Translations under genes and position numbers: made by a program
Notes under the pieces: model-generated
What the model saw: the letters and a program-made list of their open reading frames with translations, nothing else
Database searches by the model: none
What the model was told of the DNA's origin: nothing
In this document: positions 8,608 through 42,799 of the stretch, piece by piece
Layout of the letters: each line of letters begins with the position of its first letter
How positions within the stretch are numbered: the first letter of the stretch is position 1
Source of the DNA: Azospirillum brasilense
GTDB taxonomy: Bacteria > Pseudomonadota > Alphaproteobacteria > Azospirillales > Azospirillaceae
DNA: 64,000 bases
Assembly: GCF_005222205.1 (NCBI RefSeq)
Contig: NZ_CP032345.1
Location: 1,119,001-1,183,000, forward strand
Direction of reading: 5' to 3'

Positions 8608-8620
8608 GCACCCGCCCACT

Positions 8621-8730
8621 TGCCCCCACCCTTCCCACGGCTTCGCCGCGGGCCCCTTCCCTCCCCCGCTTCGCAGGAGAGGGACCTTAATCCCCTCCCC
8701 TGCGAAGCGGGGGAGGGCTAGGGGGGGCAA
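8621..8730. repeat. palindromic repeat, class B copy 2
   Basis: A ~110 bp inverted repeat between the convergent pheA and nudC. It shares TTGCCCCCACCC, the CACGGCTTCGCCGCGGGCC block and GCGAAGCGGGGGAGGG with copies at 2827 and 42685. Only 13 bp follow the pheA stop, so it probably forms the 3' end of that transcript. Confidence 0.85.
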
Positions 8731-12332: not shown

Positions 12333-14210
12333 ATGTCAGGACCGACGATGCGCCGAGTTCTCGCTGCCGCCCGGACCACCGCCGTTTTGGCCGCCTTCCT
12401 GGCCCTCCCCGCGCTGATGGCACCGGTCCAGGCGAACGGGGCCCAGGCGCAGACGGTCACCGTCCCCGCCCTGAAGCAGTTCGGCGAGCCGGAGTTCAAG
12501 CCGGGCTTCACCCATTTCCCGCACGCCAACCCCGAGGCCCCCAAGGGCGGTACGATCACCCTGGCCGCGCAGGGCAGCTTCGACAGCCTGAACCCGATCA
12601 TCCTGCGCGGCGTCACCCCGCGCACGCTGGGGCTGATCGCCGACTCGCTGATGGTCGGTTCCGGCTGGGAGATGGACGCCGCCTACGGCGCGCTGGCGGA
12701 GTCGGTGGAGCTGCCCGACGACAAGAGCTGGGCCGTCTTCCACCTGCGCCGGGAGGCGCGCTGGCACGACGGCGTGCCGGTGACCGCCGGCGACGTCGTC
12801 TTCGCCTGGGACTCCATCCAGGCGCACGGCAACCCCTTCCTGAAATCCTTCCTCGACCGCGTTGCCGCGGTGGAGGCGCTGGACGAGCACCGGCTGAAGA
12901 TCACCCTGAAGACCACCGGGGAGATGAAGCCGATCATCGACTTCGCCACCAGCATCGCCCCCCAGCCCGAGCATTGGTGGACCGCCAACGGGCGCGACAT
13001 CTCCAAGACAACGCTGGAGCCGGTGCTGGGCAGCGGCCCCTACCGCATCAAGGCCGTCGATGCGGGCCGCTCCATCACCTACGAGCGGGTGGCCGACTGG
13101 TGGGGCCGCGACCTGCCGACGGCGCGCGGCTTCTACAATTTCGACAGCGTGAAGGTCGATTACTACCGCGACGACGATGTGATGTTCGAGGCCTTCAAGG
13201 CCGGCGCCTACGACTTCCGCACCGAGCACCGGGCGCAGCGCTGGACCACCGGCTACGACTTCCCCGCGGCAAAGGACGGCCGGGTGAATCGCGTGGAGGT
13301 GAAGAGCGACCTGCCGCTGGGCGCCCAGGGCTTCCGCCTGAACACCCGCCGCGCCAAGTTCGCCGACCCGCGGGTGCGCGAGGCGCTGGGCTATCTGTTC
13401 GACTTCGAATGGATTCAGAAGAACATCCTGTACGGCCAGTATCTCCGCACCACATCCAACTTCCCCAACTCCGACTTCGGCGCCAAGGGGCCGCCCACGC
13501 CGGAGGAGCTGGCCCTGCTGGAGCCCTTCCGCGCCCAGTTGCCGGAGCGCGTCTTCACCACCCCCTTCGAACCGCCCAAGACCGACGGCAGCGGCAACAA
13601 CCGCAACAACCTGCGCGAGGCCATGCGCCTGTTCCGCGAGGCCGGCTGGGAGCTGAAGAACGGCCGGATGACCAGCGCCAAGACCGGCGAGGTGCTGAGC
13701 ATCGAATTCCTCGACGGCACCGGCGCGTTGACCCGCGTGATCCAGCCCTATGTGGAGGCGCTGCGCAAGGCGGGCATCGACGCGGTGCTGCGGGTGGTCG
13801 ACACCGCCCAGTTCCAGGCGCGCACCGACGAGTTCGACTTCGACGTGGTGGTGGCGAACTTCAACTTCTTCACCCCGCCGGGAACGGAGCTGCGCAGCTA
13901 TTTCGGCTCCGCCGCCGCCGACGTCCGGGGATCGGCCAACTACGCCGGCATCAAGGAACCGGCGGCCGACGCGATGATCGAGAAGGCGCTGGCGGCGAAA
14001 GATCTGGCGTCGGTCCAGGCGGCGACCCGCGCGCTCGACCGCGTGCTGCTGTGGGGCTTCTACATGGTGCCGCACTGGTACAACCCGGACAACTGGATCG
14101 CCTACCGCACGACGCTCGGCTTCCCGGAGAAGACGCCGAAATACGATCTGGGCTTCCGCAACAGCGGCTTCCCCGAAGCGTGGTGGGTAAAGCCGGGCAA
14201 GGAAGGCTGA
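12333..14210 (+). CDS. peptide ABC transporter substrate-binding protein (YejA-like 1)
   Basis: 625 residues, family 5 extracellular solute-binding protein. A signal peptide (basic MRR, hydrophobic core, probable cut after AQA near residue 40) is followed by the YejA-type opening [19 protein letters not shown] and the LGSGPYRI motif. It is 40-50% similar by eye, over its whole length, to the second binding protein at 15223, so the two are paralogues. ATG at 12333 or 12348; the latter has a better AGGA spacing. It presumably delivers oligopeptides to YejB/YejE in the periplasm. Confidence 0.92.
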   Translation: MSGPTMRRVLAAARTTAVLAAFLALPALMAPVQANGAQAQTVTVPALKQFGEPEFKPGFTHFPHANPEAPKGGTITLAAQGSFDSLNPIILRGVTPRTLGLIADSLMVGSGWEMDAAYGALAESVELPDDKSWAVFHLRREARWHDGVPVTAGDVVFAWDSIQAHGNPFLKSFLDRVAAVEALDEHRLKITLKTTGEMKPIIDFATSIAPQPEHWWTANGRDISKTTLEPVLGSGPYRIKAVDAGRSITYERVADWWGRDLPTARGFYNFDSVKVDYYRDDDVMFEAFKAGAYDFRTEHRAQRWTTGYDFPAAKDGRVNRVEVKSDLPLGAQGFRLNTRRAKFADPRVREALGYLFDFEWIQKNILYGQYLRTTSNFPNSDFGAKGPPTPEELALLEPFRAQLPERVFTTPFEPPKTDGSGNNRNNLREAMRLFREAGWELKNGRMTSAKTGEVLSIEFLDGTGALTRVIQPYVEALRKAGIDAVLRVVDTAQFQARTDEFDFDVVVANFNFFTPPGTELRSYFGSAAADVRGSANYAGIKEPAADAMIEKALAAKDLASVQAATRALDRVLLWGFYMVPHWYNPDNWIAYRTTLGFPEKTPKYDLGFRNSGFPEAWWVKPGKEG

Positions 14211-15222: not shown

Positions 15223-17109
15223 ATGAGGAAGACCGGTAAAGCGATCCTGGCCGCGGTCATGTGCCTGTATCTGGCGGAACCCTTCGCCGTGGCCCATGCC
15301 CAATCCAACCCGCAGGGGGCCGCCCCGAAAACCGGGGGGCACGCCGTCACGGCCCATGGGACGCCGAAATACGGGCCGGACTTCCAGCATTTCGACTACG
15401 TCAACCCCGACGCCCCCAAGGGCGGCGAGATCAAGCTGGCGACCTACGGCAGCTTCGACAGCCTGAACCCCTTCATCCTGCGCGGCTCGACCGCCGCCGG
15501 GGCCAGCCTGCCCTTCGACACGCTGACGGTGGAGAGCGGGGACGAGGTGCTGACCCGCTATGGGCTGCTCGCCGAGACCATCACGGTCGCCGAGGACCGG
15601 AGCTGGGTCCGCTTCACGCTGCGCCCGCAGGCGCGCTTCCACGACGGCGCCCCGGTGACCGCCGACGACGTTGTGTGGAGCTTCGAGACGCTGCGCGACA
15701 AGGGCCACCCGCTCTACCGCACCTACTACGCCGACGTGGTGAAGGCCGAGAAGACGGGCGAGCGCGCGGTCACCTTCACCTTCCGCGACGGCGGCAACCC
15801 CGAGCTTCCGGTCATCATGGGCCAGTTGCCGGTGCTGCCCAAGCACGTCTTCGAAGGAAACGGCTCCGGGGTGCGCGATTTCGCCAGCACGACGCTGGAC
15901 CCCATCGTCGGCAGCGGCCCCTACCGGATCGTCGAGGTGCAGCCCGGCCGCTCGCTCGTCTTCGAGCGGGTGACGGACTGGTGGGCCAAGGACCTGCCGG
16001 TCAACCGCGGGCGCTACAACTTCGACCGCATCCGCTTCGACTATTACCGCGACCTCGACGTGGTGTTCGAAGCCTTCAAGGCCGGGGCCATCGATTTCCG
16101 GGTGGAGCATTCGTCGAAGAACTGGGTGACCGGCTACGACGTGCCCGCCGTGCGCGACGGCCACATCGTCCGCGAGGAGATCAAGCACCAGGACCCGCAG
16201 GGCATGCAGGCCTTCGTGTTCAACAGCCGCCGCCCGGTCTTCGCCGACCGCAAGGTGCGCGAGGCGCTGAATTACCTGTTCGACTACGAATGGACGCGGG
16301 CCAACCTGTCCTACGGGCTGTTCCAGCGCACCAGGAGCTTCTTCTCCAACTCCGAACTGGCCTCCACCGGCCTGCCCTCGCCGGAGGAGCTGAAACTGCT
16401 GGAGCCCTTCCGCGGCAAGGTGCCGGAGGAGGTCTTCACCAAGCCCTTCGCGCCGCCGCAGACCGACGGGTCCGGCAACATCCGCCCGAACCTGCGCACG
16501 GCGCTGTCCTTGCTCAAGGAGGCCGGGTGGGAACTGAAGGGCAACAAGCTGCTGAACGCGAAGACCGGCGAGCCGATGCGCTTCGAGATCCTGCTGGTGC
16601 AGCCGGACATGGACCGCATCGTCCAGCCCTTCGTCCGCAACCTGGAGCGCGCCGGGATCGAGGCGGCCATCCGCGTGGTGGACACCGCCCAGTACCAGAA
16701 CCGGATCGACCGCTACGACTTCGACATGGTCATCCAGCGCATCCTGCAATCGACCTCGCCCGGCAACGAGCAGCGCGACTACTGGCAGTCCGCCCGCGCC
16801 GACCAGCCGGGCAGCCGCAATCTGGCCGGCATCAAGGACCCGGTGGTGGACGCGCTGATCGACCGCGTGATCCAGGCCCCCGACCGCGAGAGCCTGATCA
16901 CCGCGACCCGCGCGCTCGACCGCGTGCTGCTGTGGGGCTGGTACGTCATCCCGCAATGGCACGACGACGTGCGGCGCGTCGCCTATTGGAACCGTTTCTC
17001 CCATCCGGCGGTTGCGCCCAAATACGGCTTGGCCTTCACCGACACCTGGTGGGTCGATCCCGACAAGAACGCGAAGCTCGCCAACACGGCCCGCCGCGCG
17101 GCGCCCTGA
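15223..17109 (+). CDS. yejA: peptide ABC transporter substrate-binding protein (YejA-like 2)
   Basis: 628 residues. Signal peptide [17 protein letters not shown] with a likely cut after AHA (~residue 26). The mature part starts with [20 protein letters not shown], the YejA hallmark, and carries [18 protein letters not shown] ribosome site precedes the ATG. It lies 29 bp before yejB and is therefore the cognate binding protein of the YejABEF importer, which in related bacteria takes up oligopeptides and microcin C and influences antimicrobial peptide resistance. Confidence 0.93.
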
Positions 17110-18265: not shown

Positions 18266-18385
18266 TCTCCCTCCCCCGTCCCGGGGGAGGGTTGGGGTGG
18301 GGGTACCGCCGAGGATCACGGGGCTGATCCTCGGCGGACCCTCACCCGGCGCCTTCGGCGCCACCCTCTCCCCGGGGGGAGAGGG
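18266..18385. repeat. palindromic repeat, class A copy 1 (inside the yej operon)
   Basis: ~120 bp between yejB and yejE. The outer arms are CTCCCTCCCCCG-type and CCACCCTCTCCCCGG; the core has ACCGCCGAGGATCA and TGATCCTCGGCGG, and a GGCGCCTTCGGCGCC hairpin follows. The core matches the copy inside dnaE2 at 33592. The ribosome site of yejE lies just past its right end. Confidence 0.85.
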
Positions 18386-18410
18386 AAAACGCCCGTCGGA
18401 GGGCGCGACC

Positions 18411-23431: not shown

Positions 23432-23590
23432 GTTTCCCCCCGCGTGCCGCGTCCCTTGCCCCGAAGGCCCCCGCATTCGGGACGCGCGGCGGATGGAGTG
23501 TCCCTCAACCCGGCCCGGACAGGCAAGCGTTTCGCAGCCGGATCGATCGGTCAGGGTGTCGCGGGCGGGGAGTGTGCCTTTCGCGAACTT

Positions 23591-23683
23591 GCCCCCACCC
23601 TAACCCTCCCCCGCTGCGCAGGGGAGGGAACTCCGCTGGCTTCGGACAACGCCCTCCCCTGCGTAGCGGGGGAGGGTGGGGGC
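23591..23683. repeat. palindromic repeat, class B short copy
   Basis: ~93 bp inverted repeat: TTGCCCCCACCC, CCTCCCCCGCTGCGCAGGGGA, then CCCTCCCCTGCGTAGCGGGGG and GGGTGGGGGCA. It lacks the CACGGCTTCGCC block of the longer copies. It lies 20 bp past the fliG stop on the minus-strand side. Confidence 0.8.
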
Positions 23684-29687: not shown

Positions 29688-31208
29688 ATGACGGAACGGA
29701 CGGCGCGGCGCATCCTGTCCCTGTGGCTGCCTCGGCTGCCCACCGACGCCCACAGCCGCCGCCATCCGGAGCGGCGCGACCACCCCCTGGCCGCCATCCT
29801 GGCCGAACGCGGGCGGCTGGGTGTGGCCGCCGTCAACCGCGCCGCGGCGGAGGCCGGGGTGCATCCCGGCATGAGTCTGGCCGACGCCCGCGCCATCGAA
29901 CCCGCCCTGGCCGTCTTCGACGCCGATCCCGAGTCGGATGCCCGCCTGCTGGAGCGGATCGCCGGCTGGTGCACGCGCTACACCCCCTGGACCAGCCCGG
30001 ACGGCCCGGACGGGGTGGCGCTGGACATCACCGGCTGCGCCCACCTGTTCGACGGAGAGGAGGCTCTGGTCGCCGACCTGTCCGCCCGCCTGACCGCGGC
30101 GGGCTTCGAGTCGCGGCTGGCGGTGGCGGACACGCCCGCGGCGGCCTGGGCGCTGGCGCGGTTCGGGAGGGGTGCGACCCTCCTTTCCCCCCTCCCCGTC
30201 GCCGCGCTGCGCCTGCCCGCCGCCACGGTGGAGGGGCTGGCCGCGGTGGGGCTGCGGCGGATCGGCGACCTGCACGCCCTCCCCCGCGCCACGCTGGCCG
30301 CGCGCTTCGGGCCGGAGCTGCTGCGGCGGCTCGATCAGGCTTACGGGCGGCTGGACGAGCCGCTGTCCCCCCGCCTGCCGGTGCCGCCGCACAGCGCCCG
30401 CCTTGCCCTGCCCGAGCCGATCACCACCGCCGAGGCCATCGCCGAGGCGCTGCGCCGCCTGCTGGCCGCCCTCTGCGCCGGGCTGGAAAACACCGGTGAG
30501 GGCGCCCGCCGCCTGCGGCTGGAGCTGCACCGGGTTGACCGCCGGCTGGAGGACGCGCCCCAGACGCTGGCCATCGGCACCGGCCACCCGGTGCGCCGCC
30601 CGGACGCGCTGATGCGGCTGTTCGCCCAGAAGCTCGACCGGGTGGAGCCCGGCCCCGGCCTGGAGCTGATGGTGCTGTCGGCCACCGAGGCCGGGCCGCT
30701 CGCCGCCGCGCAGGCCGCGCTGGACGGCACAACGGACGGCCGTGCGGACGGCCGTGCGGACGGCCAGCCGGAGCTGGGCGAGCTGATGGACCGGCTGGGC
30801 AACCGGCTGGGGGAGCGGGCGGTGCTGCGGCTGGTCCCGCGGCAAAGCTGGCTGCCGGAGCGGAGCGTGGCCCCCGCCCCCGCCTTCGCGGATGCCTCCG
30901 GCGGTGCGCTGTGGCCCGCCGACCGCCCGCGCCCGGTGCGGCTGCTCGCCCCGCCGGAGCCCATCGAGGCCATGGCCCTGGTTCCCGACGACCCGCCGGC
31001 GATGTTCCGCTGGCGTGGCGTCCAGCACCGCATCCGACGAGCCGACGGGCCGGAGCGGATCGCGGCCGAATGGTGGCGGCGCGACGGCGAGCCCCGCGAT
31101 TATTACCGCGTCGAGGACGAGGCCGGCCGCCGCTTCTGGGTCTTCCGCCAGGGGCTGTACCGGCCCGGCGTGGCGGCGCTGTGGTTCCTGCACGGCTTCT
31201 TCGGATGA
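29688..31208 (+). CDS. imuB: ImuB, catalytically inactive Y-family polymerase homologue
   Basis: 506 residues. The fold is that of DinB-type polymerases, but the acidic catalytic residues are absent: the first strand reads ILSLWLPRLPTDAHSRR instead of a DMDAFFASVE-type motif. This is the hallmark of ImuB, the adaptor that links ImuA, DnaE2 and the beta clamp during SOS mutagenesis. An HhH region (GLAAVGLRRIGDLHALP) and a ~130-residue C-terminal tail follow. The ATG at 29688 has GGGAGG at ideal spacing; an earlier ATG falls within the LexA box. dnaE2 begins 10 bp after the stop codon. Confidence 0.93.
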   Translation: MTERTARRILSLWLPRLPTDAHSRRHPERRDHPLAAILAERGRLGVAAVNRAAAEAGVHPGMSLADARAIEPALAVFDADPESDARLLERIAGWCTRYTPWTSPDGPDGVALDITGCAHLFDGEEALVADLSARLTAAGFESRLAVADTPAAAWALARFGRGATLLSPLPVAALRLPAATVEGLAAVGLRRIGDLHALPRATLAARFGPELLRRLDQAYGRLDEPLSPRLPVPPHSARLALPEPITTAEAIAEALRRLLAALCAGLENTGEGARRLRLELHRVDRRLEDAPQTLAIGTGHPVRRPDALMRLFAQKLDRVEPGPGLELMVLSATEAGPLAAAQAALDGTTDGRADGRADGQPELGELMDRLGNRLGERAVLRLVPRQSWLPERSVAPAPAFADASGGALWPADRPRPVRLLAPPEPIEAMALVPDDPPAMFRWRGVQHRIRRADGPERIAAEWWRRDGEPRDYYRVEDEAGRRFWVFRQGLYRPGVAALWFLHGFFG

Positions 31209-31218
31209 GGGGGCCGCC

Positions 31219-34200
31219 ATGACCCCCTACGCCGAACTCCAGGTCTCGACCAGCTTCACCTTCCTGGAGGGCGCGTCCCACCCGGACGAGCTGGCGCTGA
31301 CCGCCGCCGGCCTCGGCCACGCCGCCGTTGCGGTGACCGACCGCAACTCGCTGGCCGGGGTGGTGCAGGCGCACGCCGCCGCCCGCAAGCACGGGCTGCG
31401 GCTGATCGTCGGCTGCCGGCTCGACCTGACCGACGCGGACAGCCTGCTCGCCTACCCCACCGACCGCGCGGCCTACGCGCGGCTGTCGCGGCTGCTGACG
31501 CTGGGCAAGCGGCGGGCGCCCAAGGGGGCCTGTTTCATCGCCCGCGCCGACGTGCTGGACCATGCGGAGGGGATGCTGTTCCTGCTGGTGCCGCCGGACC
31601 AGCGCGACCCCGCCTTCGTCCACGCGCTGCGCGGCTGGCGCAACGATCTGGGGGACCGCCTGCATCTCGCCGCCAGCCACCGCTACCGCGGCGACGACCA
31701 GCGGCGGCTGTCCTGGCTGGCCGGGCTGGCCGAGGCGGAACGGGTGCCGCTGGTGGCGACCAACGACGTGCTCTACCACACCCCCGGCCGCCGCCCGCTG
31801 GCCGACGTGATGACCTGCATCCGCAGCGGCACCACCATCGACGAGGCGGGCTGGCGCCTGTCCGCCAACGCCGAGCGGCACCTGAAGGCCGGGGTGGAGA
31901 TGGCCCGCCTGTTCCACCGCCACCCCGATGCCGTCGCCCGCACGGTGGAGATCGCCGCCGCCTGCCGCTTCTCGCTGGAGGAGCTGCGCTACGAGTATCC
32001 GGACGAGGTGGCCGAGGACGGGCGCAGCCCACAGGAGACGCTGACCCACCTGACCTGGGCCGGCGCCGCCGGCCGCTATCCGAATGGCGTTCCCGAGACG
32101 GTGGCGAAGGCCCTGCACCACGAGCTGGCGCTGATCGGGCAGTTGGGCTACGCGCCCTATTTCCTGACGGTGCACGACATCGTGCGCTACGCCCGCTCGC
32201 AGGAAATCCTGTGCCAGGGGCGCGGCTCGGCGGCCAATTCGGTCGTCTGCTATTGCCTGGGCATCACCTCGGTCGACCCCACCGCCATCGACCTGCTGTT
32301 CGAGCGCTTCATCTCCGCCGCCCGCAACGAGCCGCCGGACATCGACGTGGATTTCGAGCATGAGCGGCGCGAGGAGGTCATCCAGTACATCTATCGGAAA
32401 TACGGGCGCGAGCGGGCCGGGCTGACCGCCACCGTCATCCGCTACCGCGCGCGCGGCGCCATCCGCGAGGTCGGCAAGGCCATGGGCCTGTCCGCCGATC
32501 TGGTGGCGCGGCTGTCCGGCTCCGTCTGGGGCTGGAGCCGCCACGGCGTGGACGAGGAGCGCGCCCGGCAATACGGCTTCGACCCCGACGACGCGCGGCT
32601 GCGCCAGACGCTGGAGTTGGCGCAGGAGCTGATCGGCTTCCCCCGCCACCTGTCGCAGCATGTCGGCGGCTTCGTCATCACCCGCGGCCCCTTGAGCGAC
32701 CTCTGCCCCGTCGCCAACGCCGCCATGGAGGGACGCACGACCATCGAGTGGGACAAGGACGACATCGACGCGCTGGGCATCCTGAAGGTGGACGTGCTGG
32801 CGCTGGGGATGCTGACCTGCCTGCGCCGGGGTTTCGACCTGCTGAAGCGGCATTATGACAGCGCCCTGACGCTGGCGACGGTGCCGCAGGAGGACCGGGC
32901 CACCTACGACATGCTGTGCCGGGCCGACAGCCTGGGCGTCTTCCAGGTGGAAAGCCGGGCGCAGATGTCCATGCTGCCCCGCCTGCGCCCCAAGACCTTC
33001 TACGATCTGGTGATCGAGGTCGCCATCGTGCGCCCCGGCCCGATCCAGGGCGACATGGTCCACCCCTACCTGCGCCGCCGCACCGGCGAGGAACCAGTCA
33101 ACTACCCGTCTCCCGAGCTTGAGAAGGTGCTGAAGAAGACGCTGGGCGTGCCGCTGTTCCAGGAGCAGGCGATGAAGATCGCCATCGTCGGCGCCGGATT
33201 CAGCCCGGAGGACGCCGACCGGCTGCGCCGCGCCATGGCGACCTTCCGCAAGACCGGGCTGGTCCACACCTTCCGCGACCGGTTCATCGAGGGGATGGTC
33301 GGAAAAGGCTACGACCGTGCCTTCGCCGAGCGCTGCTTCCAGCAGATCGAGGGGTTCGGCGAGTACGGCTTTCCCGAAAGCCACGCGGCGAGCTTCGCCC
33401 TGCTGGCCTATGTGTCGGCCTGGATGAAGTGCCACCACCCGGACGTCTTCGCCGCGGCCCTGCTGAACAGCCAGCCCATGGGCTTCTACGCCCCCGCCCA
33501 GATCGTACGCGATGCCCGCGAGCACGGGGTGACCGTGCTGCCCCCGGACGTGAACGCCTCCGACTGGGACTGCACGCTGGAACCCCTGTCGCCCTCTCCC
33601 GCCCCGGGAGAGGGAGGGACCCGCCAAAGGCGGGAGGGTGAGGGTAACGCCGAGAATCAGCGCGCCAATCCTTGGATGCACCCTCACCCGGCCGCTGCGC
33701 GGCCACCCTCTCCCGGGGCGGGAGAGGGGATAAGGTACGCCCTGCGGCTCGGCCTGCGGCTGGTCCGGGGGATGGACGAGGACGACGCGCACCGGCTCGT
33801 GCTGTGCCGCGGGGCGGGCTACCGCGATCCCTACGACCTGTGGCGCCGCGCGCGCATGCCGGTCGCCGGGCTGGAGCGGCTGGCCAGGGCCGACGCCTTC
33901 CGCTCGATCGGGCTGGACCGGCGGGCCGCGCTGTGGGCGGTGAAGGCGCTGGGGGCGCAGCCGCTGCCGCTGTTCGCCGGCCTCGCCGACTCCGCCCAGG
34001 ACGAGCCGCAAGCGCTCCTGCCCTCCATGGCGCTGGGCGAGCATGTGGTGATGGATTACGGCAGCCTGTGCCTGTCGCTGAAGGCGCACCCGATGGCGCT
34101 GCTGCGCGACGGCTTCGCCGGGGTGGCCCCGACCGAGCGGCTGGGAAAGGTGCGGGCCGGCACGCGGCTGACCGTGGCGGGGCTGGCGCTGGTGCGGCAG

Positions 34201-34506
34201 CGGCCGGGCAGCGCCGAGGGCGTGGTCTTCATCACGCTGGAGGACGAGACCGGCATCGCCAACCTCGTCATCATGCCGGACGTGTTCGAGACATTCCGCA
34301 AGACGATCCTCGGCGCCCGCCTGATCGCCGCCACCGGGCGGGTGGAGCGCAGCGGCAAGCCCAACAAGGAGGGCGGCGAGGTCATCCACCTGCGCGTCGA
34401 GCGGCTGGCCGATCTGACGCACCGGCTGCGCGACCTGACCGACCCCGACGCGCTGCCCAACCGCTCCGCCGCCGCGGTCTTCCCGGAGGGGCGGAACTTC
34501 CGCTGA
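31219..34506 (+). CDS. dnaE2: error-prone DNA polymerase III alpha, DnaE2 (ImuC), with an in-frame palindromic insertion
   Basis: 1095 residues. N-terminal PHP domain, the catalytic palm with PPDIDVDFEHERRE (~residues 372-385) and KVDVLALGML (~517), beta-binding HhH region and a C-terminal OB fold (AGLALVRQRPGSAEG). Catalytic aspartates look intact. Residues ~792-837 are encoded by a ~137 bp class A palindromic repeat; family members go directly from DWDCTLEP to the ALRLGLR segment. The inserted stretch is Pro/Gly/Arg-rich and sits between the tandem HhH region and the following domain, probably as a surface loop. DnaE2 performs translesion synthesis with ImuA and ImuB after DNA damage. Transcribed with imuB under LexA. 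Confidence 0.95.
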   Translation: MTPYAELQVSTSFTFLEGASHPDELALTAAGLGHAAVAVTDRNSLAGVVQAHAAARKHGLRLIVGCRLDLTDADSLLAYPTDRAAYARLSRLLTLGKRRAPKGACFIARADVLDHAEGMLFLLVPPDQRDPAFVHALRGWRNDLGDRLHLAASHRYRGDDQRRLSWLAGLAEAERVPLVATNDVLYHTPGRRPLADVMTCIRSGTTIDEAGWRLSANAERHLKAGVEMARLFHRHPDAVARTVEIAAACRFSLEELRYEYPDEVAEDGRSPQETLTHLTWAGAAGRYPNGVPETVAKALHHELALIGQLGYAPYFLTVHDIVRYARSQEILCQGRGSAANSVVCYCLGITSVDPTAIDLLFERFISAARNEPPDIDVDFEHERREEVIQYIYRKYGRERAGLTATVIRYRARGAIREVGKAMGLSADLVARLSGSVWGWSRHGVDEERARQYGFDPDDARLRQTLELAQELIGFPRHLSQHVGGFVITRGPLSDLCPVANAAMEGRTTIEWDKDDIDALGILKVDVLALGMLTCLRRGFDLLKRHYDSALTLATVPQEDRATYDMLCRADSLGVFQVESRAQMSMLPRLRPKTFYDLVIEVAIVRPGPIQGDMVHPYLRRRTGEEPVNYPSPELEKVLKKTLGVPLFQEQAMKIAIVGAGFSPEDADRLRRAMATFRKTGLVHTFRDRFIEGMVGKGYDRAFAERCFQQIEGFGEYGFPESHAASFALLAYVSAWMKCHHPDVFAAALLNSQPMGFYAPAQIVRDAREHGVTVLPPDVNASDWDCTLEPLSPSPAPGEGGTRQRREGEGNAENQRANPWMHPHPAAARPPSPGAGEGIRYALRLGLRLVRGMDEDDAHRLVLCRGAGYRDPYDLWRRARMPVAGLERLARADAFRSIGLDRRAALWAVKALGAQPLPLFAGLADSAQDEPQALLPSMALGEHVVMDYGSLCLSLKAHPMALLRDGFAGVAPTERLGKVRAGTRLTVAGLALVRQRPGSAEGVVFITLEDETGIANLVIMPDVFETFRKTILGARLIAATGRVERSGKPNKEGGEVIHLRVERLADLTHRLRDLTDPDALPNRSAAAVFPEGRNFR
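33592..33728. repeat. palindromic repeat, class A copy 3, inside the dnaE2 reading frame
   Basis: Outer arms CCCTCTCCCGCCCCGGGAG and CTCTCCCGGGGCGGGAGAGG, core GGGTAACGCCGAGAATCAG and a GGCCGCTGCGCGGCC hairpin. It matches the intergenic copy at 18266. Within dnaE2 it is read without stop codons in the coding frame. Confidence 0.9.
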
Positions 34507-42676: not shown

Positions 42677-42684
42677 GGGGGCAC

Positions 42685-42799
42685 TTGCCCCCACCCTTCC
42701 CACGGCTTCGCCGCGGGCCCCCTCCCTCCCCCGCTTCGCAGGGGAGGGAGGTTCAATCCCCTCCCCTGCGAAGCGGGGGAGGGTCAGGGAGGGGGCAAG
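42685..42799. repeat. palindromic repeat, class B copy 3
   Basis: ~115 bp, nearly identical to 8621-8730: TTGCCCCCACCCTTCCCACG at the left and GCGAAGCGGGGGAGGGTCAG...GGGGGCAAG at the right. Between the convergent PrcB-like and ABC permease genes. Confidence 0.85.

Follow-up and report, generated by a model that had tools for sequence, protein, structure and literature searches.

Repetitive extragenic palindromes (REPs) in frame in dnaE2 have already been reported: the parts of PMC3733652 (BMC Genomics 2013) covered here describe palindromes that are mainly intergenic and that also occur in frame within genes for DNA repair, dnaE2 among them, in some cases as the sole tagged gene of a species. 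The Rickettsia palindromic elements (RPEs), as presented in the covered parts of PMC10969869, are multicopy palindromes of about 150 nt that lie in frame within genes and are read through; they occupy many unrelated genes, with nearly half of the copies in open reading frames (ORFs). The miniature inverted-repeat transposable elements (MITEs) of the same source are non-autonomous and dispersed, and have inverted ends. Here we describe a 137-nt palindromic repeat, class A, that lies within dnaE2, the gene of an error-prone DNA polymerase, in a 64,000-nt stretch of the Azospirillum brasilense genome (contig NZ_CP032345.1, positions 1,119,001 to 1,183,000; the window). We consider it quite probable that a permissive loop of this dispensable SOS polymerase repeatedly gains, swaps and collapses palindromic repeats, that selection on the polymerase keeps the frame, and that the inserted peptide is itself close to neutral.

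As occurs with the REPs of PMC3733652, the class A repeat is palindromic, mainly intergenic and in frame in dnaE2. As far as the covered parts of that paper describe them, however, those REPs are GTAG/CGTC units at different sites (recB apart), whereas ours is a 137-nt untagged element, found with its remnants at one recurrent DnaE2 loop; a GTAG or CGTC tag within 6 nt outside an end, on either strand, was seen in 2 of 51 clean-ended copies. Those parts do not mention a loop at which repeats recur, remnants of collapse or the uncoupling of loop and flanks, and nothing else on repeats in dnaE2 turned up in the covered open-licence PMC literature. Like RPEs, the element is a multicopy palindrome that is open in frame within a gene, with read-through predicted from the sequence, and the resemblance to the Rickettsia elements noted in the first-pass annotation of this DNA holds in that it would work as they do. 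By description rather than by compared sequences, RPEs can be regarded as its functional parallel; unlike RPEs, as the covered parts of PMC10969869 portray them, just 1 of 56 copies here is gene-internal. The repeat also resembles MITEs in being apparently non-autonomous and dispersed, with inverted ends, and differs from them in the absence of a target duplication signal and of a parent transposase (the transposon search covering PF01797 only). REP elements accompanied by REP-associated tyrosine transposases (RAYTs) consist of hairpin units in inverted pairs, and the class A repeat is arranged likewise; unlike them, it has no GTAG tag. The idea of a RAYT-mobilised REP was dropped, as the genome had 0 matches to Y1_Tnp (PF01797).

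A multicopy palindromic repeat in frame within dnaE2

The gene dnaE2 (imuC; 31219..34506, + strand) encodes a protein of 1095 aa (NF004225, 1409.6 bits against a cut-off of 939). The class A repeat (33592..33728, +) is open in frame as residues 792-837, between DWDCTLEP (782-789) and ALRLGLR (841-847). Both the presence of an in-frame palindromic repeat and its multicopy nature, as proposed in the first-pass annotation, were borne out; the 46 residues that it took to be translated correspond to a stop-free frame, and they would be translated if the ORF is read as predicted. The whole loop insert, which is the insert compared across species below, comprises the 49 codons (33586..33732, +) between the conserved P789 and R839.

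Each half of the element consists of a 23-nt end unit, an inner hairpin and a core arm, with a spacer separating the first half from its mirror. The left end unit T (33592..33614, +) is a near-palindrome by itself, and the right unit T' (33706..33728, +) is its exact reverse complement. Reading inwards from the left, the inner hairpin (33620..33634, +; CCCGCC-AAA-GGCGGG) is followed by the arm GGGTGAGGGT (33636..33645, +), complementary to 33680-33689; the opposite half contains the arm CCCTCACCC (33681..33689, +) and a second inner hairpin (33690..33704, +; GGCCGC-TGC-GCGGCC). The element has a folding energy of about -107 kcal/mol, and the 147-nt loop insert folds 10.7 standard deviations (SD) below 60 dinucleotide shuffles. 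Its coding score is -0.40, against +0.39 for the gene. A search of positions 33400-33900 against Rfam gave nothing over threshold (best 16.7 bits, with 40 needed), and a protein search with the 60-residue region around the insert found three Azospirillum DnaE2s among 102 candidates.

The genome (7.2 Mb) contains at least 40 places that match the dnaE2 element with 80-100% identity; these correspond to 80 matches over both strands of a palindrome, and the number is a lower bound, with 40 of 174 candidates scored. A scan with the core pattern gave 62 matches on the forward strand and 60 on the reverse, against 0 in the control, or about 60 copies. We sampled 56 distinct copies with their flanks, and measured length and frame on the 53 of 125-150 nt, excluding three shorter ones. 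Copy length was 133-144 nt, a multiple of 3 in 18 of the 53, and reading frames were open through the copies in 171 of 318 cases (0.54, against 0.47 in shuffles). The inner hairpin stems stay complementary across copies while their sequences differ: perfect stems of at least 5 bp were present in 55/56 short hairpins (9 different sequences) and 43/53 long ones (13 different sequences), both counted without a chance control.

The intergenic copy to which the element had originally been likened (18266..18388, +) could be aligned to its core and is a true, if diverged, relative. On the same strand the two share 95 identities, with 22 mismatches and 26 gap positions; on the other strand, 97 identities, 17 mismatches and 32 gap positions. 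This copy is without one inner hairpin. Over 45 genomes of the genus, forward class A counts range from 0 to 94, with any match in 32 of them. Copy number swings between close species (forward counts of 1 in G001, 63 in G042 and 94 in G007), which suggests bursts and purges.

One DnaE2 loop carries different repeats in the genus and beyond

Searching the 45 genus genomes with DnaE2 gave matches in 44, some of them only DnaE1-like or fragments. The loop could be read from a main dnaE2 in 40 genomes, with classes assigned by reading. The first-pass annotation proposed aligning sister strains to see whether the insertion is present, and loops with and without an insert exist: 17 carry a strong palindrome with an insert of 126-174 nt (fold z of -5.4 to -11.6 against shuffles), 11 a collapsed remnant and 12 neither. 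None of the 40 loops has an in-frame stop, and every loop length is divisible by 3. The class A core was found at the loop of G000, G042, G038 and G006, class B at that of G003, G005 and G037, and class C in seven genomes, while G027, G009 and G031 each have a core form of their own. Full loops were seen in 7/10 against 2/7 members of the brasilense group when these were compared by class A copy number, a difference that was not significant (Fisher p 0.15). Two DnaE2 records named Azospirillum argentinense (P0002 and P0013) are 1095 and 1057 aa long, the lengths of the full and the collapsed loop, and the loop may vary within species.

On a tree of 49 DnaE2 rows from which the loop was left out, the state changes between full and not full at least 13 times, and 21 times when classes are told apart. 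Strains of types A and B are intermixed on this tree. The first-pass annotation, which describes the one insert in dnaE2, is incomplete in that this loop has seen many comparable events, both within the genus and in other families.

Outside the genus, we used 80 named loci from GTDB genomes (the best 80 of at least 591), 74 of them outside the genus group. The refuting condition of the first-pass annotation, the same 46 residues in all DnaE2 homologues of distant genera, does not hold for these 74. Net loop residues were at most 9 in 52 loci, 10-29 in 16 and at least 30 in six, all of them other peptides. Among the 14 loci that were folded, five of the six long loops were palindromic (L058 -4.1, L074 -8.5, L081 -10.2, L112 -6.1 and L115 -4.8 SD). 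Reyranella, Jiella and Methylocapsa carry multicopy repeats of their own at the same DnaE2 loop, with 19, 70 and 77 matches of the insert in the respective genome; the insert itself is among these matches, which were counted on both strands and with partial units.

A protein survey pointed to the same place. In the best 120 of 8000 scored DnaE2s, compared with a loopless reference (some proteins giving two rows), there were 97 insertion rows of at least 12 aa: 74 at the loop, 23 in the C-terminal region and 0 elsewhere. All 120 relatives of the Methylocapsa protein were longer at the loop, partly from native residues of that group, and a PHP-domain loop was also variable among them. By peptide signature over both sets, rows that look palindrome-derived made up 171/210 at the loop, 26/55 at the PHP loop and 0/208 in the C-terminal region; note that the signature is ad hoc, was written after the loop peptides were known, and has the 0/208 C-terminal rows as its sole control. 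The 26 rows of this second loop (reference 110-150; P0121-P0240) are palindrome-like peptides of the Roseiarcus/Methylocapsa group.

The replicative paralogue DnaE1 has no comparable insert: one unbroken match over 1035 residues was obtained in 45/45 genomes, 3102-3126 nt long against 3105 in the query, with a net length change of at most 7 aa in every genome. Given that relatives differ in the repeat that they carry there, the DnaE2 loop looks like a recurrent landing site, not a one-off accident.

Position of the insert in the protein

The insert interrupts the HHH_6 domain (residues 770-903; 33526..33927, +; Pfam) near its start. An AlphaFold2 model built on 69 sequences (mean predicted local distance difference test score, pLDDT, 75; predicted template modelling score 0.66) places strands at 786-789 and 840-843; between them lie residues 793-836, at pLDDT <50. 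The insert is therefore predicted to form the unstructured tip of a beta hairpin that opens the helix-hairpin-helix (HhH) domain, a position that rests on this model, on Pfam and on a phmmer alignment to E. coli Pol III alpha, in which it falls between residues 819 and 835. About 75 residues after the insert site there is a QPLPLF stretch, which we take to resemble a clamp motif. As the first-pass annotation had it, the catalytic residues look intact: D374 and D376 align with E. coli D401 and D403, presumably catalytic, and are unchanged in 69 of 69 aligned DnaE2s.

Copies within and between genes

Two tests were applied to the 56 own-genome copies. In the first, which compares the best coding frame in the 240 nt on each side, the frame was the same in 6 copies, shifted in 14 and unclassed in 36 (low or opposite-strand flank scores); the element was stop-free in two of the six, dnaE2 and L152. 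L152 was rejected as a gene-internal copy, having a stop in each flank and failing the second test. The latter asks whether any frame stays free of stops through the element plus 240 nt of each flank; insertions within 240 nt of a gene end escape it. Such a frame was present in 11/56 copies (one copy had too short a flank), and among these the dnaE2 copy alone has coding scores in both flanks (0.38 and 0.30). It is the one gene-internal copy of the 56, apart from any insertion close to a gene end.

Class C was sampled as 24 copies from three relatives, 22 of them testable and two with too short flanks. A stop-free frame was found in 6/22; of these, only the three dnaE2 copies scored positive for coding in both flanks. 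By the analogue of the first test two of the three were recognised, and one true dnaE2 case (L230) was missed.

Two class C repeats, in L229 (G036) and L233 (G012), lengthen a gene in frame at its end, the stop lying beyond the repeat; we take the extended gene to be murB-like and the gene just after it to be ddl-like. Occupancy also recurs outside dnaE2: at an intergenic site right after the query match (L204-L223), class A was seen in G000, G037 and G009 and class B in G027; the remaining 16 of the 20 loci show no element.

Probable collapse and exchange of loop inserts

Between A-type flanks, the right end unit alone remains, exactly, in G001 and G014, and the left one alone, with a change, in G018. 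The same is seen for type B, where G007 and G008 keep the right unit and G035 the left, like those of G037. Full copies thus probably shrink to one 23-nt terminal unit through deletion between the two ends, a direction suggested by comparison of the alleles. By reading, a split older unit seems to enclose a class C element or its remnant in G033, G034 and G026.

Linkage of loop type to its surroundings was tested in 14 windows around the loop, some of them overlapping. Only two windows, the 3 nt immediately downstream (p 0.001) and one 1500 nt upstream (p 0.04), had sequences closer within than between types A and B; within 60 nt upstream p was 0.06-0.07. From 3 nt downstream onwards the A/B type is no longer coupled to the gene, consistent with loop cassettes having moved between lineages in very short tracts.

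Proposed origin and maintenance of the insert

We propose that a non-autonomous palindromic repeat, habitually intergenic, would arrive at the beta-hairpin tip that opens the DnaE2 HhH domain. The hairpin loop would tolerate extra residues and the gene would be dispensable outside DNA damage, so that in-frame, stop-free copies could survive, while selection on the polymerase would remove insertions that break the frame; in the covered parts of PMC3919608, dnaE2 is nonessential in every genetic study cited. With a length divisible by 3 in about a third of the copies and roughly half of the frames open, some insertions would be expected to pass. Within Azospirillum, and among other Alphaproteobacteria too, the loop has taken up different palindromic repeats many times, and the resident repeat would evolve as DNA, its arms remaining complementary, its ends recombining and its cassettes moving. 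The claim that the repeat had been exapted, that is, had taken on a new function, found no evidence: the insert is predicted to be disordered, scores poorly as coding sequence and is collapsed in close sister species. There is no sign of selection on the insert peptide; in 9/9 pairs the insert shows less synonymous divergence than the gene, with too few changes to judge dN/dS.

Several observations weigh against this reading. Y1 transposase (Y1_Tnp) had no genome match at E 0.001, with 5/14 control genomes positive. The target duplication that the first-pass annotation suggested looking for was not convincing either: junction repeats averaged 1.45 nt against 1.24 in shuffled pairs in the 51 clean-ended copies (38/300 shuffles as high), and the one intergenic empty site gave no convincing duplication. 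Since neither was found, the insertion is itself putative. L126, one of the six long outside loops, is not palindromic (+1.0), and nine further genus dnaE2 loci (L141-L149) have 4-6 loop residues and no insert; on the tree eight of these are a second dnaE2 type and one groups with G043. Tolerance alone does not explain that no further internal insertion could be detected among the 56 own and 22 testable class C copies, because many dispensable genes have loops. The PHP-loop inserts favour general tolerance, but equally may point to something special about DnaE2. Targeting, or a genuine influence on how the enzyme works, may account for dnaE2 being the only internal site detected among the copies tested.

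Targeting at the DNA level, in which palindromes or a motif of this part of dnaE2 attract the element and the resident 23-nt unit serves as a landing pad, we regard as unlikely. The nested class C cases and the intergenic site occupied by class A or class B would fit it, but the flank consensus is weak (A at -3 in 57/102 flanks) and absent at the dnaE2 left end, and in other genera this loop of the protein is occupied by different repeats. That the loop is functional, a disordered Pro/Gly/Arg-rich extension at the clamp-side HhH that tunes DnaE2 access or processivity and is swapped adaptively, seems rather unlikely to us. The site does lie within HHH_6 ahead of the clamp-like stretch, cassettes recur across lineages and no other internal insertion was detected among the copies tested; the covered parts of PMC3733652 also speculate that REPs modified repair enzymes toward mutators. 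Against this, the peptides differ by lineage and derive from different repeats, close relatives of insert-bearing species have 3 loop residues, and the insert is predicted to be disordered.

A single ancient insertion at the root of the genus, followed by divergence and decay, would account for the palindrome or remnant in 16/17 brasilense group members. It is highly improbable, however: the cores of A, B, C, G027, G009 and G031 look different by eye, loopless and insert-bearing species such as G019 and G030 are sisters on the tree, and remote families carry repeats of their own genomes. An ordinary coding expansion or an assembly artefact, for which nothing of weight speaks, is refuted by the same insert in the sister G042 (DnaE2 97% identical, one insert residue changed) and by other genomic copies up to 88% identical to that of dnaE2.

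The dnaE2 cassette and other repeats of the window

DnaE2 has the Pfam domains PHP, DNA_pol3_alpha, finger, HHH_6 and OB. Directly 5' of its gene lies that of an imuB-like Y-family protein (29691..31208, +; Pfam IMS and IMS_C), so that both the error-prone polymerase profile and the imu neighbour of a DnaE2/ImuC are present. Other G+C-rich palindromic repeats lie at 2822-2905, 8617-8700, 42682-42765 and 23588-23628. Neighbouring paralogous genes (12488-14084 and 15363-16965), about 2.88 kb apart, share stretches of 70-86% identity.

Implications

In the covered parts of PMC3919608, the DnaE2 core is longer in GC-rich genomes (rho 0.58), which is attributed mainly to the PHP and thumb domains; loop inserts may explain part of the length variation seen there. 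Annotators should not take loop segments as conserved sequence. It is decidedly doubtful that the in-frame expansion, collapse and exchange of palindromic repeats, by resetting the length and charge of the hairpin tip at the clamp-side HhH domain, makes the DnaE2 loop a swappable one that tunes SOS mutagenesis strain by strain within one genus; if true, repeat traffic would feed back on mutation rate. Finally, full, collapsed and empty alleles of one loop exist in close relatives, which makes the gain, loss and effect of translated palindromes measurable.
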